Shown: one piece after another, positions 13,860 to 24,465 of the stretch
Layout: the number at the start of each line of letters is the position of its first letter
Numbering within the stretch: position 1 is the first letter of the stretch
Notes under the pieces: model-generated
Database searches by the model: none
What the model saw: only the letters and a program-made list of their open reading frames with translations
What the model was told of the DNA's origin: nothing
Program-made: the position numbers and the translations under genes
Assembly: GCA_022925895.1 (NCBI GenBank)
Contig: JAKSYS010000801.1
Coordinates: 1 to 24,465, forward strand
Source: Fragilaria crotonensis
Taxonomy: Eukaryota; Bacillariophyta; Fragilariophyceae; Fragilariales; Fragilariaceae
Length of the DNA stretch: 24,465 nucleotides
Direction of reading: 5' to 3'

Positions 13860-14159
13860 AGTTGATGTATATGAGCTGCGTCGCTCCATCTAGTTACGTA
13901 CTGTACTACAGTTACTGTGATGGGCTACTTGCTACGGCTTGACGGTTTGGATTTCTACTCGTGACATCATCACGTTCATTTTTTGAATCCCGCCCTTTCT
14001 TTGGCAATCGGCGCCACACTTCAAAATAGAATCATAATTCCGGAAACTAGTAACATTGCTTGCTATTGACCGTCTTTGCTTCTATTGAGTAGCAACCCTT
14101 TGAGACCATCCTCCCTTACATCGGTAAGCTGTCTCTCTCTTCGTTGTATTACAACGAGT
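13860..14159 (+). repeat. 5' LTR of the copia element
   Basis: 300 bp, base-for-base the same as 20961-21260 when read side by side; base 14160 also matches but is assigned to the primer-binding site. It contains the element promoter and polyadenylation signals in principle, but no clear TATA box was identified. Confidence 0.93.
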
Positions 14160-14173
14160 GGTTATGAGCCCAA
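14160..14173 (+). other. Primer-binding site, initiator tRNA-Met half-tRNA type
   Basis: GGTTATGAGCCCA begins immediately after the LTR. It is complementary to the anticodon-loop region of initiator tRNA-Met (GGGCTCATAACC), as in Drosophila copia, where an internal 5' half of the tRNA serves as primer. It is not complementary to the tRNA 3' CCA end. Exact pairing length would need the host tRNA sequence. Confidence 0.65.
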
Positions 14174-14243
14174 GACGACTGTCTGTTTATTGAAACAAGA
14201 TAAGCAACTCATCACGTGATCCTATTTTAGTTGATCTTCCACC

Positions 14244-17200
14244 ATGACAACTGTGATCGATCCTCCAAAACGTGGAGGCATTCATCCCCAGTTTGGAAGG
14301 TTCATCGGTGGCGCCAAGCTCAATGACTCGTATGAGACTATCGGCGGAAATGGAGCTAGTTTGTACCGATTCTCGACGCAGCGGCGCCATGAGAAGACCA
14401 TCGCTTCGATCGAGAAGACGCTGATCGATACCCGTGATTCTACTACCGGCATCAAGTTCAATGGGACGCTCGAGCCAGGAAAGGACCGCCCATCGGAGAT
14501 TGGTAAAGAACGCTTTATCACTCTGTTGAAGAAACGTGTTACCGAACACGGTCAGCAGACGTTCTACCACATCAAGGACACGGACGGCAAAGTTGTCGAC
14601 TTGTTTGAACACGCCCATCGGTTCAAGCTTGACTTTGTGGTTGCAGAACATGAGAGGCGCATGCAGGACAACGAGTTGCATGAGTCATACGACAGCATTG
14701 AGCGCGATGATTGTCAGTTGTCTCGCGGAGTCGTGGAATCCTTCTTTTCCGAATCCTTCCAGGAGAAGATTGAAGTCCGGTTTAGCCATCGCGAAGATTT
14801 CGAAACGCTTCCCGGATCTTGCCTTTTCATGATGGCACTCGAGACTTGTAACGCCTCCGTCTTTCATGATGTCGAGGGCGCCAAGAAGAAGTTGGAGGCT
14901 TTGGACCTTAATTCTTACCCTGGAGAAAACGTCACCGATCTCGCTGGTGAGGCTCAGCGATTACTGAAGATTATGGCCGGTGCCTACGCTGTCCCAGTGA
15001 ACACCGGTTCGACATTGCTGATGAAGCTCACGCACACGTCCAGTGAGATTTTCAATCGAAAAATCTTTGCCCTCCTCGACGAAGTCATGACTCGAGTCCG
15101 AGTACGAACTCACGGATCCTCGTCTGTTTGTCAAGGATGCGAACCATAAGAAGTATGGACCTCTGGCCCTCATCGCTACCATCCAAGCGTCGCATGGCAT
15201 GCTATTGAGTCAGCAGCGCTGGCCAGCATTGGCAGCCTTGCCCCAAAGCAACAACTCCTCCGTATCCACCGGTGGATCTTCCGGAACGGGCCCTGCATCA
15301 CTCAACGGGCGCAAGTGTTACCGTTGCCAAGGCGATCATCTGGTGAAAGACTGCCCTGTTCCAGCGCCAGCGGACGGCACGGGTTCAACAGCTAGCGGCG
15401 CTGGCACACAACGTCAGAAGTCTCCCCTTGCAGCTTGGAAATACATCAAACCGAGTGATGTAACGGTTCCTCGTGTCGACGCAAATGGGAAGACGTGGAA
15501 ATTTTGTACGAAGTGCAAGTGTCGCGCTACGCAATCGATTGGCATCTACCAGTTGAGCCATTGGGACTCAGAACATGTGGACAATTATCGACGTCCAGGA
15601 GGTATGCCGGCTGCGAATCCGGCATCCACGGGTGACACTTCTGCGGCCCCACCGGAAGTGCCTGTTGCCACTTCATCTACTGCCCCGCAGAGTAATCTTA
15701 CGTCTGTTTCGAACCCCAATCCTATTCCCCCTGGACCTCCCGACGTCACCGTTCGTCCTGTCGATCTTTCCGATGATGCTCACGATATGGATCAACTCGA
15801 GTTTACTGGCATGTGGTGTGCATCTGTCGATGATACGACCATCTCAGCCGCTGCCATGTTTCATGCTCAGTTATACTGTTCTCTCGTGGACTCTCCAGCT
15901 GATGCCGATGCCACGATTACCTTGACTAGGGTGGCGACGTCTGTCTTCGAGAGGGAGAGTGTTCCCGCATTGCTCGTTGAAACGGTTGTCGAAGACGTGA
16001 CTTGCGATGATGGTGCCGATGATGATGACATTACGGTTGTGACCATGTTTCCTGACCTCAGGAGTAACGACTTGCCCGTTGAAATGGTTCCCGATGATGT
16101 GAGTTGCACCGACAGCGACGATGATGACGATATCACTGTCGTGACGATGTTTCCCGACCCCGATCGCGCTGATCACAATGACGCCGATAATGCGGATTAT
16201 CCATCCACCGACGACGATGATGACAACTCCTTCTATAGTGAGGACGGTTCGAATGGTGAGGACGGTTCGAATGGCGACGCGGACGACGAGGAGGATTCAT
16301 ACTACGATGATCCATGGTCCACTCTTTCTGCTGCTGTTCGCTACGACCTCGAGCACCCACCGATTGATGACTTCTATGATGCTTCGGACGTCGCACTCCC
16401 TGTTACGGTTTACAAAGGCATCGAATTCTTTGATCCAATTGAACCTCCGCTCATTTCTCCCATTTGGTTTCGTCCTCGACCGGAACATTGGTTTTTTCGC
16501 TGGGCTAAGAACCGTTTGTTCTGGGCAACAACTGTGTTTTGGGACACCATCGCCCACTTTGTTGCTCCTCCGCCACCATTATTACGTCGTATTCGCCGTC
16601 GTCGCAGCCCTATTACTGTTCCAGCCTATCCCAAGGCGTGGATGCTCCTGACGAGCTGCTTGATGCTTGGACTGGATGCATTTCGCGGGAATGTCCCACC
16701 GTTCCCGATTCAGAGCCCGATGTCGTTCATCGACCATGCCGTTACCTGCGGACAGGCGTCATATGAGCGTATTGAACGCCTTGAGGAACTCGTTGTTCTC
16801 AATCCAGGAACATTTCTACAATATCAGGCTTGGCAGTATCGTTTGATCAGCCAGATCTTGGAGGCCAGGAACCCACCGGTTCTTGAACCCACCATCGACG
16901 TTGATTCGGAAGAATTCTTTGATTCCTACGAACAGGAACCAAAGGAAACTGGCGAGCACTTCTTTGATGCTATGGAAACAGAAGAGCAAGGCACGGATGT
17001 CGCAAAATTTGATCCGTTCGCTGTGCACGAACTGACCCACAATCCAACAACGATCAACTGCATCACTCAGTCTGTGACAGCGGAACTTCTACTCGATAGC
17101 CAACAGGGACTCAACGGACCAACTGTGCTTCATCAAGGTCTCTCAAGTGCAGCATTTCAGATGCTGGCAGCTGACCCTCACGCGTTTATGAGCATAGGAG

Positions 17201-20200
17201 GAGAGACACGCAAGCCTGTGATTTTTGACACAGGCGCATCCCTCGGAATCACTTACGACAAGGAGGATTTTGACGGACCTCTCACGATTCCAGAGGGAGA
17301 TTTGCGCCTTGGGGGCATGGCACAAGGACTGAGAATTGAAGGAGTCGGACCAGTCAGTTGGACCTTTCGAAATCCCGACGGTAGCGAGATGAAGATCAGG
17401 TCGCAATGCTATTTTGTTCCCGAAGCCAAGGTTCGTCTGATCAGTCCCCAACGGCTATTCAACAAGAGCAAGGGTGTTACTGGCAAGTTTGAAGGAGATG
17501 AAGACACGTTTACATTGCACTTTGATGGAGGTCATCAGTTGATTGTCGAGTATGACAGCCGGAATCACCTTCCAATTGGATACGCCAGAGTCGGTGACGA
17601 TGTACCGCCCTCGATTGATCCACAAGCAAACCTCACATTGTTTGATGACACGAATCAGAACGTTACGGCCGGACATCGTCTTCTCATGAATTGGCATAGT
17701 CGGTTCGGACATTTGAATTTCCCAGCTGTGCAACGCATTCTCCGTCAGTTTCCTTTCGTCTCAGTCAAATTTGCAGCGGCATCAAAATGTGACTTGACCG
17801 ATTTTCGCTGCGAGATTTGTCAATATGCCAAAGCTTATCGCCGTACCACTCACGGAAAACGAACTCAAGTCAACGAAGAGCGTGACGGTTCACTCGCGCA
17901 GAACACCTCGGACCCGGCACCCGCGTTTCGGTCGATCACTTCGAATCTCGACTTCTCGGTCGCACCCGCGATTCGTATGGAAAGCCATCGTCAGATAAAT
18001 ACAAAGGAGGCTGCATTTTTGTGGATCATGGGACAGGGTATTTACATGTGGAACATCAGTTGGGGTTCTCCGCCGTCGAGACGATCCGCGCCAAACAGAG
18101 TTTTGAAAATATGGCTTTCGAACATGGTGTAGTGACACAGTCATATTTGACTGACAGTGGCGCTTTCAAGGCAAACTCATTTGTTCAGCACATTCGGGAG
18201 CACGGCCAGCAGATTCACTACTGTGGCACGAACGCTCATCATCAGAACGGAATAGCGGAGCGATCAATTCGCACTGTATCGAATATGGCCCGTGCCATGC
18301 TGCTTCATTCTGCGGCTCACTGGAAAAACGGTGTTGATAGTTCTCTGTGGCCAATGGCGGTCTCGTACGCTGTCTACGTATATAATAACACGCCAAATGC
18401 ACAAAATCTGTGTCCTGCGGATTTGTTTACTGGAAGTACGGTTCCACGTCATCGCCTACGTGACCTTCATACATGGGGATGTCCTGTATATGTTTTGGAT
18501 CCATCGTTGCAGGCCGGCAAAAAGCTACCTCGATGGGAACCCCGATCTCGCAGGGGTGTCTTCGTGGGTCTCAGCACTATTCATTCAAGTGAAGTTCCGT
18601 TGATCCTTAACCTTGCCACTGGGAGTATCACTCCACAGTATCATGTGGTGTTTGATGACCGGTACTCGACTGTTACATCTATTGGCAGTGATGACGACCC
18701 TCCCTCCGATTGGGATGACCTATGTTTGGACAACTCTCTTTATGTGCCTACCGATACCGCGCCGGACACTCCTGTTCACCTTCATGACGATTGGCTCACC
18801 GATGCCGAACGCGAAGTCAAGTACCGCGACCTCCAACGTCAAGATCGTGTGCGTAATCTGCAACATCCGCAGCCATCAACACCGACCAGTCTACTTGTTC
18901 CTTCGGCACAGCCTCCAAGCCACACATCTTCAGAGGGAGATGTTCCACCCATCGCCCCTACTACTGCTACTCAGCAGCAAACTCTACCTAAGTTTGTCTC
19001 TGTCGCTCCCGAACCTCTCTCGGGCGTCTGTTCTGGTCCTGTGATGGGACCTGACGTCGTTACATCTGACTCCACGGTTGATCAGAGTCTTCGTCGCTCT
19101 ACTCGTGCTACAAAGGAACATTTCAATCAACAAAGTATATTGACGAAGCCTATCTTACGTCTTTTGATCGTATCGCACAATGCGATTCCTACACGACTCA
19201 TCTCGTATCTCGCCGAGATTTCGACGTGCTGCGATACGGGGATTGAAAACGTTGTTGATCCGCGTGCATACGCCGCCAAGACCCCTGGATCTGACCCCGA
19301 CATGCCCACTTTCCATCAAGCTGTGAATGGCGAGCATGCTGAAGAATGGATCAGAGCGATGCAGCTGGAGGTTGAGACGTTGGTCCAGCAACGTACCTGG
19401 ACGATGGTTCCGCGAACGGCTAAAATCAACGTTTTGAAGAGCACCTGGGCGTTTAAGTTGAAGCGCCTTCCCGATGGAACTCCATCGCTTCAAAAGCTCG
19501 TTTCTGCGCCCGCGGGACTTGCAAAAAGGGAGTTGATTTCTTCGACACCTACGCTCCAGTTGTCCAATGGTCCACTATTCGACTTCTGCTTAGCACCGTT
19601 CTGACTGAAGGATGGGCGACGCGGCAGGTGGATTACACAAATGCTTTCGCACAGGCAAATTTGAATGAAGAAGTTTACTTGGAGTTCCCGAAGATGTTCG
19701 CTCCCAAGTCTCGTTCTAACGTCGTGTTGAAGCTCATCAAGAGTTTATATGGCCTCCGACAGGCGCCCCGTACGTTCTTTGAAAAACTTCGAGATGGCTT
19801 ATTGGAACGTGGCTATACTCAATCTCAGAACGATCCCTGCCTGTTCATGAAGGATGGTATTCTTTGCGTTGTATACGTGGACGACACGATATTTGCCGGG
19901 GCTGACTCATCCATTCTTGAAGAAGAAATTCGTGCCTTAGGAGTTAGTGACACCGAGCAACGACATTCGTTCCAACTCCGCAACGAAGGCGAAGTTGGCG
20001 CTTTTCTCGGTATCCAGATCACCAAGACCGGCAAGCGTACGTTTTCGTTACTTCAAACCGGACTGATCTCGAAGGTACTCACCACGGCAAGCATGTCCGA
20101 CTGTAACGGCGTGTCCACCCCAACTGGTAACTCGCCAGTCGGAAGTGATACAGACGGTGCACCATTTGCCGAATCTTGGCAATACCGAACTGTGATCGGC

Positions 20201-20941
20201 ATGTTGATGTATCTGGCGGCCAATACTAGACCGGACATCGCATTTTCGGTGCATCAGGCGGCTCGGTTTTCTCATGCACCGCGCCAGTCGCATGCTGTGG
20301 CGGTGAAACGGATTCTGCGCTATCTCAAAGCAACTCAGGACAAAGGTCTTATCATGTCACCAACGGATGACAGAAGGGTTGATTGTTATGTTGACGCAGA
20401 CTTCGCTGGAGCGTTCGCCGTCGAAAATCCTCAAGATCCCATGTCAGTCAAGTCTCGAACTGGGTACGTCATTATGTATCGCGGTAGTCCGCTCTTTGGG
20501 TCTCAAGATGCAGACTCAAGTGGCGCTGTCGACGATGGAAGCAGAATACGTGGCATTGTCCCAATCTATGCGTGATTTGATTCCAATTCGTCAGATCTTG
20601 CAGGAGATCATGACCACTGTATTCAAAGTTGCACCTACCATTACGTACCGTTCTCTCTCTAAGGCCTTTGAGGAAGTCAAGGCTGGATCCATCTCTTCCA
20701 ATATCGAGCAGTCCACCGTCTATGAGGACAATCATGCCTGCTTGAAGTTTGCTCTGCATGCTCAGCTGAGCCCACGCACTAAGCACATCGGCATTCCGTA
20801 TCATTGGTTTCGCTCAAGGTCGAAAGTCTGGACATTCAGATTGAAGCCATTCCCACAACCAAACAGTTAGCCGACCCGTTTACAAAAGGGCTTGCTCAGG
20901 CTCCCTTTGAGATGTTTCGTATGGCTTTGATGGGATGGTGA
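14244..20941 (+). CDS. gag-pol: Copia gag-pol polyprotein, frame-disrupted
   Basis: Starts at ATG 14244 (ACCATGACA) and ends TGA 20939-20941 (upstream of the purine tract). In order: gag (14244 to about 15300); variant CCHC knuckle CYRCQGDHLVKDC (about 15316-15354) and a second Cys/His cluster (about 15508-15572); a long acidic/hydrophobic spacer; aspartic protease DTGAS (17227); HHCC pre-integrase region (HSRFGH...CEIC, about 17695-17825); integrase catalytic residues in VDHF, LTDSGAF and GIAERS; reverse transcriptase with YVDD at 19874-19885; RNase H with YVDADFAG, STMEAEY and EDNHACL. Frame changes near 15089-15099, 17913, 19489, 20495-20506 and 20816 are each explained by one or two missing bases in short runs. 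With identical LTRs this argues for an otherwise intact element with sequence errors, but genuine inactivation is possible. Confidence 0.92.
15979..16161 (+). repeat. Internal 102-bp-spaced acidic repeat in the gag-pol spacer
   Basis: Two diverged units (about 15979-16059 and 16081-16161) encode ETVVEDVTC...DDDDITVVTMFPD and EMVPDDVSC...DDDDITVVTMFPD, followed by further Asp/Glu-rich sequence to about 16310. The DNA differs at many third positions, so this is an old protein-level duplication and not an assembly artefact. Confidence 0.8.
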
Positions 20942-20951
20942 CTCTCGGGTT

Positions 20952-20960
20952 GAGAGGGAG
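20952..20960 (+). other. Polypurine tract
   Basis: GAGAGGGAG lies just before the 3' LTR and after the pol stop, the expected place for plus-strand priming. Confidence 0.7.
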
Positions 20961-21260
20961 AGTTGATGTATATGAGCTGCGTCGCTCCATCTAGTTACGT
21001 ACTGTACTACAGTTACTGTGATGGGCTACTTGCTACGGCTTGACGGTTTGGATTTCTACTCGTGACATCATCACGTTCATTTTTTGAATCCCGCCCTTTC
21101 TTTGGCAATCGGCGCCACACTTCAAAATAGAATCATAATTCCGGAAACTAGTAACATTGCTTGCTATTGACCGTCTTTGCTTCTATTGAGTAGCAACCCT
21201 TTGAGACCATCCTCCCTTACATCGGTAAGCTGTCTCTCTCTTCGTTGTATTACAACGAGT
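20961..21260 (+). repeat. 3' LTR of the copia element
   Basis: Second copy of the 300-bp LTR, with no difference from the 5' copy seen. It ends 250 bp upstream of the ATG of the PARP-finger gene and points toward it, so read-through or LTR-driven transcription of that gene is possible. Confidence 0.93.
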
Positions 21261-21265
21261 GTTTT
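21261..21265. repeat. Candidate target-site duplication, right copy (GTTTT)
   Basis: Directly follows the 3' LTR and matches 13855-13859. The surrounding T run leaves the boundary uncertain by a base or two. Confidence 0.55.
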
Positions 21266-21510: not shown

Positions 21511-23043
21511 ATGGCAACAACTTACCACATTGAAAAGGCCAAAAGTGCTCGCTCCAAGTGCAAAAAATGCAAGGAAACCATCGTTAAAGATGACATGCGT
21601 ATTGGAAGTTCCAGTGAACGCGATGATCGCATCATGACTTCGTAAGTACGATGGTTTGACCTCACGCTCAAAAGTCCGCCTGTTCTCTTGCACTATTCGT
21701 ACATCTAATCCGCCGCGCATTCACGCAGTTGGAATCACATCAAGTGCTTCTCGCTTCCGCGAGCACTCAAACAGCAGGGAATTACAATCGAAAGCTTTGT
21801 ATTGGACGAATTGAAGGACCCCGACGGCCTTTTGGATGAACACAGCGATGAAATCATCGCCGAACTAGAATCCAAGGGTTCGGCCAAGAAGACGCCCAAG
21901 AAAGTTGTGGATAGTTCGACCATGCTCGGGAAGATTAAGCGAAACTATGCGGAAAGCATGGACGATGAGGAGGATCGTCCTGCGAAGAAAACCAAACTTA
22001 GCAAGACTGAAAAGGAAGAAGTCGAGCTCTATGAGATCTACAAGAACAAGAATGCAGATGAACTTAAAGACTACATGCGGTACGTTTCCCTCTCCCCATC
22101 ATTACAAGCATCCATTTATTACATCTCGATCTCAATTTCGTCTTTTTTTAGTTGGAATCATCAAATTATTGGCGGCCGCAAAGATGCGCTCATACTGCGC
22201 TGCATCGACGGTCAGATGCGAGGACGGCTGGCCCGGTGCCCCATGTGCAAACAGGGAAAACCCAAGATTGCCGAAGAAGATCACGATTATGCCAGTTGTA
22301 ACGGATACTTTGATGAAGACATGCAATCACGAGTGCCTTGCAACTTCCAGATTTCCCTCGACAAGGCCGCTCGTTTGCATCCATGGTACACGGAGCCGCC
22401 GACTGAGGAGCAAGAGGAAGAAATGAAGGCACAAGATGAAGTTGCCAAGAGCGGTAAGGCACCTCCGAATCCAAAAAATGAGAGTGCCGCCAAAGAAATA
22501 CTTAGAAAGGCTGAAACTATGGAGTGGAAGGTCAAAAGCAAGGAAGATATCAAGTCCACGACGGAAGCCATTGTCAAGATCTGCCTTGACGGCGGGGTGA
22601 GTTTACCGAAGGGAAGCGAGCAGAAGGCGGTGGGTAAGCTTGTCGTACAATGCAAAACAGCCACAGCAGCGGAAGTCATCAAACTGATTATCGATGAATA
22701 CGGTTTTGCCTCTGGCAAAGATACTGGTGACCAAGCCATTGACAATGTCGCCGCATCACTCTGTAAAGTGCCTGCTAACGCGAAACTCTATGCCATGCTC
22801 GATGAATTCGCCGAGCTCATGCGCAAGAGCGGAGAATTTATGAAGAGCAATATGCAGAAGAAGTGTGCACAGGCGATTGCAGCACTTCCGTTCGAGGTGA
22901 CCGAGGAGAACGCTTTGAAGTTGGGTAAGCCAGGTAAAGCTAAGATTCCTGGTATTGGCAAGTCCTCTGCCGAGAAGATGCATGAATACCTAACAACTGG
23001 CAAGGTCGCAAAGCTTGAGGAATTGAGGGCCAGTATCGAGTGA
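21511..23043 (+). CDS. PARP-type zinc finger / PADR1 / pol-beta HhH protein
   Basis: Three exons: 21511-21641, 21729-22079 and 22152-23043, with introns GTAAGT...CGCAG and GTACGT...TTTAG; 457 residues. Residues 5-55 form a zf-PARP finger (C17, C20, H47, C50), the nick/break-sensing finger of PARP1. Residues about 150-235 match PADR1/PARP1 zinc finger 3, with C190, C193, C210 and C224. After an unknown helical region (about 255-365), residues about 375-457 resemble the 8-kDa lyase/HhH domain of DNA polymerase beta: PGIGKSSAEKM...LTTGKVAKLEEL, with Lys436 aligned to pol beta Lys72. No WGR, PARP catalytic or nucleotidyltransferase domain follows before the stop. It is probably a nuclear DNA-break-binding protein; lyase activity is inference. 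The 3' LTR lies 250 bp upstream, and the DUF1415-like gene converges on it. Confidence 0.82.
21642..21728 (+). other. PARP-finger gene intron 1
   Basis: 87 nt, GTAAGT donor and ACGCAG acceptor. It splits the first zinc finger between its Cys pair and its His-Cys pair; splicing gives MTS-WNHIKCF, restoring the ligands. Confidence 0.9.
22080..22151 (+). other. PARP-finger gene intron 2
   Basis: 72 nt, GTACGT donor and TTTTTTTAG acceptor. It has no in-frame stop, so unspliced reading inserts 24 Ser/Ile/Tyr-rich residues. Splicing gives DYMR-WNHQIIGGRKD, which fits PADR1. Confidence 0.85.
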
Positions 23044-23112: not shown

Positions 23113-24263
23113 TTAATTCATGTCGACTGCCGGTAGTGTTTTCTTATCCGCAAGAATTTTCATAACATTTCGAGCATAGACTGCGTTTGGCTTTTGTTGG
23201 AAGACGCGGCTTCGACTTGTTTAGCAGCATTGAGCTGCGACCGAGAAGGTTTATTGTCGCATGCGGAGTCCATCGAACTGCATCGTTCGCTTTTCCACAA
23301 GTTGAAGGCTGGGATGTTCGGCAAGACTCTGCCCATGTTATCGGCAATGAATCTTGCACCATGGATGCTGGTAGGGCATGGCCAGCAATGATTTTGTCGT
23401 GGCCAACATTGACAGTGCTGTAGCTCGGATGAAACCAGGCGCGGCCGACAATTTGATCAGCCTTTACCACTTGTACGGTGACTTCAATCAAGTCGTCACA
23501 CGTTGCTGCAAATTCGTGAAAATCCGCATCGTAGTCGGACGGAGCAATTAAGACAATGTTGCAACCGTCTCTTCCGGGGTCGTCGCGATGTTTGTGACAC
23601 CTTCCCAAAAGGCTGCTGCCAAGAGAGACGCAGCTGAAGCATCAGGGCGATACAATGGTGGTAGAATCACAATAGGGCCGACTTTACATTTGCTGACTCC
23701 AAACCCACAGCTGCTCGAGAGGCTTGCCGTATAAGGACATAGGCTGAGTCGACAGAGAGTGTCGTCGACCCACGTCTTGGTGGCTGATACAGCAGCCTCG
23801 TTCGATGATTCAGCGGGCTTCTCCGTCGTCAATTCGTTTCTTAATGGTGCGGATGGCCAAAATAATTGTATTCCGTTGCAGGGAGCCTTGGCCACGCCAA
23901 CACTTCCGACTTGACCCCACCCAATCGATCAGCATTGTTGTTGACGACACGCACCAAGCCTCCCAGAACATCGGTGTCTGAAAGCCGAGGAAACCATATC
24001 GACAAGCAGTTCCTTCCAGCAGCCAGGGTCTGAAACAATACTCTTGCCACCTGGTATCCTTCTGTTACGTCATTACCCCAGATACAACCATCCAAAGACC
24101 TAGCTTCACAATCCTTCTGCAAAGCCTGCGCTCCTCCGGCGAATCCAAGTCGGACTACTGGGGGCAACAAAAGGCTTTGTGTACTGAGAGCGGCGATCCA
24201 CGGAACTGCAGCGGTTGGTACGATGATCGAGAATAGCAAGATGAACCAACTCCATCGTCCCAT
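23113..24263 (-). CDS. Secreted or organellar DUF1415-like protein, frame-disrupted
   Basis: Starts at ATG 24263 with a signal peptide (MGRWSWFILLFSIIVP...). Successive minus-strand segments read as one protein: a Cys-containing N-terminal region, then DUF1415-like features TKTWVDDTLCRLSLCPY, IVLIAPSDYDADFHEF, GRAWFHPSY and AGHALPASMVQD, with the C-terminal end MKILADKKTLPAVDMN before TAA at 23113-23115. Frame changes near 23843, 23556, 23350 and 23192-23195 each need one extra base in a short run; with four added bases the total is exactly 385 codons. DUF1415 has no established function; bacterial members are about 180-200 residues, so the N-terminal extension is extra. Intron signals were not convincing at the breaks. 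It converges on the PARP-finger gene with 69 bp between stops. Confidence 0.65.
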
Positions 24264-24465
24264 GGTCGACTCGGAACGTTTCGTCAAAGGTTTTTTCAAC
24301 GTTGGTGTCAGTCTAAGGGCCGACGGAGGTACAAGTAACTCGTGGTGGTGTGGTGGATGGTGAGTTGTCAGGTGAGTTTTTACCGGCGCATGAGAAGGAC
24401 TCTCGTATCTCCTATGAATATACTGGTACTGAATATACAGTGTATGTCATACGCTATAATGGTCT
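24264..24465. other. Upstream region of the DUF1415-like gene
   Basis: About 200 bp to the window edge, with TACTGGTACTGAATATAC-type words at 24420-24450 that resemble the GTAC-rich blocks elsewhere. No gene seen. Confidence 0.4.

Follow-up and report, generated by a model that had tools for sequence, protein, structure and literature searches.

A diatom protein that joins a PARP1-like finger to a pol beta-type 8-kDa domain: a possible break-targeted lyase

A three-exon gene of the diatom Fragilaria crotonensis encodes a 457-residue protein in which a zf-PARP finger and a probable PADR1/Zn3 module precede a C-terminal domain of the 8-kDa type found in DNA polymerase beta (pol beta). The protein retains the lysine equivalent to Lys72 of pol beta, which appears to have been replaced in the only family-X polymerase (PolX) found in the genome. 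We tentatively view the protein as a break- and gap-binding factor, possibly a dRP lyase that acts in trans to a lyase-less PolX, a reading that is plausible if somewhat short of probable, the lyase chemistry being putative.

Gene structure and the two alleles

The gene occupies the + strand near the end of the window, the whole 24,465-nucleotide stretch of DNA that was analysed. Exon 1 (21511 to 21641) encodes residues 1-44 and ends in a split codon, and is followed by exon 2 (21729 to 22079) and by exon 3 (22152 to 23043), which ends in the stop codon. The intervening sequences, intron 1 (21642 to 21728, 87 nt) and intron 2 (22080 to 22151, 72 nt), both have GT..AG boundaries, and spliced translation gives 457 residues in which Cys17, Cys20, His47, Cys50, Cys190, Cys193, Cys210, Cys224 and Lys436 are exactly where a preliminary description of this DNA had placed them. 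Intron 1 divides the zf-PARP ligands, with Cys17 and Cys20 before it and His47 and Cys50 after it. The open frame of exon 3 comprises 296 whole codons and contains the zinc ribbon, the middle region and the 8-kDa domain; these two domains are thus fused irrespective of splicing: the ribbon and the 8-kDa domain share the exon.

A search of the genome (62.1 Mb, 881 contigs) with the whole protein returned six exon-wise matches in two places, the contig of the window (C781) and a second contig (C567). As the two are 97.7-98.3% identical over their common stretches, they are read as two haplotypes. The genome itself is that of a diatom, as shown by the silicon-transporter family, which has 19 matches, 18 above the cut-off. 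The allele on the second haplotype encodes 458 residues, and differs by one inserted codon and in 16 other codons (10 synonymous and 6 non-synonymous changes; dN 0.008, dS 0.041, dN/dS about 0.2). The amino-acid changes affect residue 132 and the segment 270-353 (numbered as in the window), leaving the finger, the ribbon and the 8-kDa domain identical. Intron 2 is stop-free and in frame, but carries 7 substitutions between the alleles in 72 sites, compared with differences at 15 of 1374 coding sites (Fisher P 5e-5); such an excess is expected of a removed intron, despite its readable frame. Intron 1 displays no allelic difference in 87 sites. Judged from the sequences of both haplotypes, the gene is real, has three exons and is under purifying selection.

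Upstream of the gene, positions 13860-21261 of the window contain a retrotransposon, Copia-like as judged by eye from its ORFs, with 301-bp LTRs of 100% identity and a target duplication of 5 bp. The element is not present on the other haplotype. About 250 bp separate its end from the start codon, and it may change the expression of this allele. Downstream, on the minus strand (23144-24446), are three overlapping open frames that contain no Pfam family above cut-off.

Domain content of the protein

A Pfam scan of the protein identified a zf-PARP finger (PF00645; residues 8-86, positions 21532 to 21855 with intron 1 inside) with a score of 54.7 bits, compared with a cut-off of 39.3, and an E-value of 1.7e-14. 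Membership of the family is supported both by the profile score and by the C-C-H-C ligands Cys17, Cys20, His47 and Cys50. In the alignment to PARP1 Zn1, Arg14 and Arg30 correspond to Arg18 and Arg34 of PARP1, whose Lys15 and zf-PARP ligands are likewise all matched, while Phe44 is replaced with Asp and Val48 with Met. The order of a zf-PARP finger and then a probable Zn3 is that of PARP1; the protein, however, contains a single zf-PARP match and lacks the WGR and ADP-ribosyltransferase domains. Indeed, the six families listed by Pfam at E up to 10 include no WGR, PARP-catalytic or polymerase catalytic domain, and thus no fingers, palm or thumb of DNA polymerase X; one of the six, the HhH motif IMS_HHH (E 0.2), overlaps the C-terminal HHH_8 match. 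The preliminary description, which had reported the finger, the missing domains and a pol beta-type C-terminus, is borne out on all three points. When the whole protein was compared with PDB sequences the best matches were PARP1 in full length, an N-terminal construct of PARP1 (query residues 4-194 aligned) and a fusion of Zn1 with Zn3, with the C-terminal part matching pol beta. Following the finger is a basic stretch, RPAKKTKLSK (residues 127-136, positions 21976 to 22005), which is NLS-like in pattern and suggests that the protein may be nuclear.

The probable PADR1/Zn3 module spans residues 130-224 (positions 21985 to 22341, intron 2 inside) and contains Cys190, Cys193, Cys210 and Cys224. 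Its profile, Zn_ribbon_PADR1 (PF08063), scored 13.5-15.0 bits against a cut-off of 25.1; run against the genome in six frames, it ranked the two alleles third and fourth of four matches (E about 1), and it gave matches of an equally weak kind in five control genomes. When the module alone was compared with the PDB, PARP1 Zn3 was at the top (E 0.071), and four of the five matches at E up to 1 were PARP1, the remaining one being an unrelated protein. BLASTP against human Zn3, a single comparison, gave 2e-5. The score of the local alignment to PARP1 Zn3, which spans the first two cysteines only, was reached by none of 1000 shuffles, and in the global alignment all four cysteines are paired. The assignment to PADR1/Zn3 made at the outset is therefore retained as probable, supported by the domain order, the ligands, the best PDB match and the shuffles, but not by the profile, which remains below its cut-off.

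The C-terminal domain (residues 369-445, positions 22774 to 23004) matched HHH_8 (PF14716) with 43.6 bits against a cut-off of 30 (E 3.8e-11), and this part of the protein alone retrieved pol beta from PDB sequences with an E-value of 3.2e-6. Exon 3 (296 aa) was modelled with AlphaFold2 from a 28-row alignment in which relatives cover only the last 90 or so residues. The model has a mean pLDDT of 72.0, with C-terminal blocks at about 85-96 and a poorly modelled ribbon at 35-40. Foldseek returned 149 PDB matches at E up to 10 and none at E up to 0.001; the best 50 of the 149 consisted of family-X polymerases and of 6h5h, a designed lyase domain, with a lowest E of 0.025. The C-terminal domain matched pol beta at about 2.0 Å over 86-88 columns (prob 1.00), an alignment that involves about 86 of the 296 residues. 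The 8-kDa fold of the C-terminal domain is thus shown by the predicted model. In its fold, its HhH motif and its equivalents of Lys72, Lys35 and Lys84 the domain resembles the 8-kDa dRP-lyase domain of pol beta, and also those of pol lambda and prokaryotic PolX. In contrast to pol beta, the domain is C-terminal, is not accompanied by fingers, palm or thumb, and has Gln and Met in place of Tyr39 and His34, respectively. The stand-alone dRP lyase domain 6h5h, matched by both sequence and fold, is similarly an 8-kDa domain without a polymerase, but is engineered rather than natural.

Prokaryotic relatives of the 8-kDa domain were also found (37, with identities of up to 49%; alignment A3). We do not conclude that the domain came from archaea or bacteria: it is short, and these relatives are the top matches of a very large collection and were selected by motif. 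Searches of viral contigs gave no relatives among the 20 stretches that fitted the pattern for the full-length protein, or among the 213 found with the 8-kDa alignment A2.

Between the ribbon and the 8-kDa domain is a middle region (residues 268-364, positions 22471 to 22761) that is predicted by AlphaFold2 to be helical, the prediction extending over residues 261-372. Modelled alone, the latter segment has a pTM of 0.71, and its five models range in mean pLDDT from 74.6 down to 49.1. The region lacked an assignment in the preliminary description, and comparison with the PDB leaves it so: phmmer gave no match at E up to 10 and Foldseek none at E up to 0.001, a Ruvbl chain having the top probability (0.30) among the best 50 of 106 Foldseek matches. 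The DNA-binding domain of DNA ligase III was rejected as a relative, the observed alignment score being reached by 312 of 2000 shuffles.

Lyase pocket and genome context

Pairwise alignment with human pol beta places Lys436 (codon 22975 to 22977) on Lys72 with a score that was reached by none of 1000 shuffles. Together with the profile of relatives, this upholds the correspondence originally proposed for this residue. Lys35, Lys84 and Lys41 of pol beta are also kept (Lys392, Lys448 and Lys398, respectively), whereas His34, Tyr39, Lys68 and Arg40 are replaced with Met391, Gln396, Ser432 and Lys397. In pol beta Lys72 is the nucleophile, Lys68 a ligand of the 5'-phosphate and Lys84 an alternative nucleophile, according to PMC8375306. 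Ten of the 37 prokaryotic relatives were left out of the alignment. In the 27 that gave long matches, column 72 is Lys in all 27, a figure biased by the presence of AEK in one of the two search patterns, column 39 is Tyr in 26 and column 68 is Ser in 21. The serine is thus normal for these prokaryotic relatives. The loss of Tyr39, by contrast, is unusual at the sequence level and, with that of His34, indicates an altered 5'-phosphate pocket. The evidence on whether the protein may be a lyase is consequently mixed: the equivalents of Lys72, Lys35 and Lys84 are kept, and positions 39, 34 and 68 are changed to Gln, Met and Ser.

The genome was searched in six frames, so that genes are seen exon by exon and split domains could be missed. 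HHH_8 occurs in six places, four of them above cut-off, which we interpret as three genes, each present on both haplotypes. In addition to the gene described here, these are a Mus81-like gene (C33, with Pfam ERCC4; C313 is the presumed allele) and PolX (C143, L026, with Pfam fingers, palm and thumb; C382, L027, is the presumed allele), the latter pair being the only places in the genome with a palm domain in the six-frame profile search. PolX has Met in the Lys72 column of the profile of 27 relatives, within the motif SSLGMIKEW that both haplotypes share, and its residue in the Tyr39 column is Phe, although its HHH_8 scores (27.8 and 26.5 bits) are below the Pfam cut-off of 30 and its alignment is therefore less certain. 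In the Mus81-like gene the alignment ends just before the Lys72 column, the next letter being Ile. Thus, among the three HHH_8 genes found, the lysine is kept only by the gene described here, a comparison that covers HHH_8 genes; pol theta, Ku and glycosylase-lyases are other sources of lyase activity. The diatom's own repair polymerase seems, from its sequence, to have lost the lyase step.

WGR domains gave no match in a six-frame profile search of the genome, while two control genomes did give matches. The zf-PARP profile matched the gene described here twice, and one further place (C327; L001, L034), where an intron-split match lies just upstream of an SNF2-related ATPase domain, the two probably forming one gene. 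PARP catalytic domains gave six matches, five above cut-off. Pfam scans of four of these loci (C89, C41, C658 and C328) identified WWE but neither zf-PARP nor WGR, and in the one frame of C94 that was scanned neither was present; no PARP1-type enzyme was thus found among these five, the sixth match being at C843. Perina et al. 2014 (PMC4245714) report one diatom that has PARPs and some others in which none were found.

The PARP-catalytic loci have architectures of their own. In C658 (L030:2590-5127, minus strand) and C328 (L031:1542-4130, plus strand) an ANF_receptor ligand-binding region, WWE and the PARP catalytic domain share one open frame, and in C94 (L033) a receptor region is followed by a sub-cut-off PARP match in the next, overlapping frame. 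By eye, all three resemble membrane receptors that carry an ADP-ribosyltransferase on the cytosolic side, fusions that seem stranger than the protein described here. In C89 (L028) the 3' end of a frame encoding a Cache domain overlaps the start of the WWE and PARP frame, which is a different one, while C41 (L029) has a single open frame in which a stretch that, by eye, seems extracellular and membrane-spanning precedes WWE and PARP.

Possible functions

A role in finding breaks and gaps, as was initially suggested, follows well from the zf-PARP and 8-kDa families. By analogy with PARP1, the finger and the probable PADR1/Zn3 module would grip the broken end, and the 8-kDa domain, as in pol beta, would sit on the 5' side of the gap. 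Lys436 could then act as the Schiff-base nucleophile on the 5'-deoxyribose phosphate, leaving a 5' phosphate that can be ligated. The lyase step would be supplied in trans, as the Lys72 equivalent is missing from the one family-X polymerase found, with the gap being filled by a polymerase; the protein would combine a break sensor with an end cleaner in the absence of ADP-ribosylation or polymerization. The genome context, with Met in PolX and no WGR match, strengthens the lyase idea. The fuller proposal, that this is a natural free-standing dRP lyase targeted to breaks, in which a PARP1 sensor lost its ADP-ribosyltransferase and gained a dRP-lyase domain in a genome whose only PolX lost the lysine, is more doubtful.

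The main rival to a lyase is a non-catalytic scaffold, in which the finger and the 8-kDa domain hold the sides of a nick or gap and the middle helices recruit partners, similar to XRCC1/PARP1-like loading but with no chemistry. We consider this a real possibility. It is consistent with the altered Tyr39 and His34 positions of the pocket, and with the predicted helical middle region, in which five of the six allelic substitutions and the one-residue indel are located. XRCC1_N had no match in the genome, which would also fit a scaffold, but as no control genome gave a match either this is not evidence of absence. Against a scaffold, the equivalents of Lys72, Lys35 and Lys84 are retained together, while PolX and the Mus81-like gene lack the lysine. 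It is improbable that the protein is instead a modulator of end processing that competes for or shields breaks, for example a PARP1 remnant devoid of its catalytic domain acting in a dominant-negative-like manner or as a chromatin factor. Although the finger and probable Zn3 in PARP1 order and the lack of a WGR match in the genome are consistent with such a remnant, decay of PARP1 leaves the well-matched pol beta-type domain unexplained. In the global alignment Arg stands opposite PARP1 Trp318, a residue of an interdomain contact, a change that fits loss of the catalytic part but does not discriminate between the readings. An artefact of the gene model or assembly that joined neighbouring genes is highly improbable, given the identical structure on both haplotypes, the single open frame that holds ribbon and 8-kDa domain, the zf-PARP ligands that straddle intron 1, and the dN/dS.

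The finger of plant ZDP is presumably of the zf-PARP type. As an idea, a zf-PARP finger that delivers an end-processing domain resembles DNA ligase III, whose finger was matched in the PDB (1uw0, E 3.3e-6), and ZDP (PMC6728418). Unlike these enzymes, the diatom protein contains no ligase or phosphatase family in Pfam. The earlier statement that no named protein with this architecture is known holds for the titles and beginnings of abstracts listed from the open-licence PMC literature, none of which describes zf-PARP with an 8-kDa domain, and for passages of PMC4245714, PMC8375306, PMC8877055, PMC2375893 and PMC6728418; it does not extend to absence from print. The individual parts are known, and the combination may be a known but uncharacterized diatom architecture, as the search for relatives covered this genome, prokaryotic and viral sequences and the PDB.

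As a rule, dRP lyase activity of the pol beta type comes with a polymerase that fills the gap. If the lyase reading is correct, a stand-alone lyase carried on the break sensor of PARP1 would make sensing, cleaning and filling separable, and would hint at how single-strand breaks are dealt with in a lineage that lacks WGR-type PARPs. The three jobs of vertebrate single-strand-break repair would then have been redistributed in this diatom.
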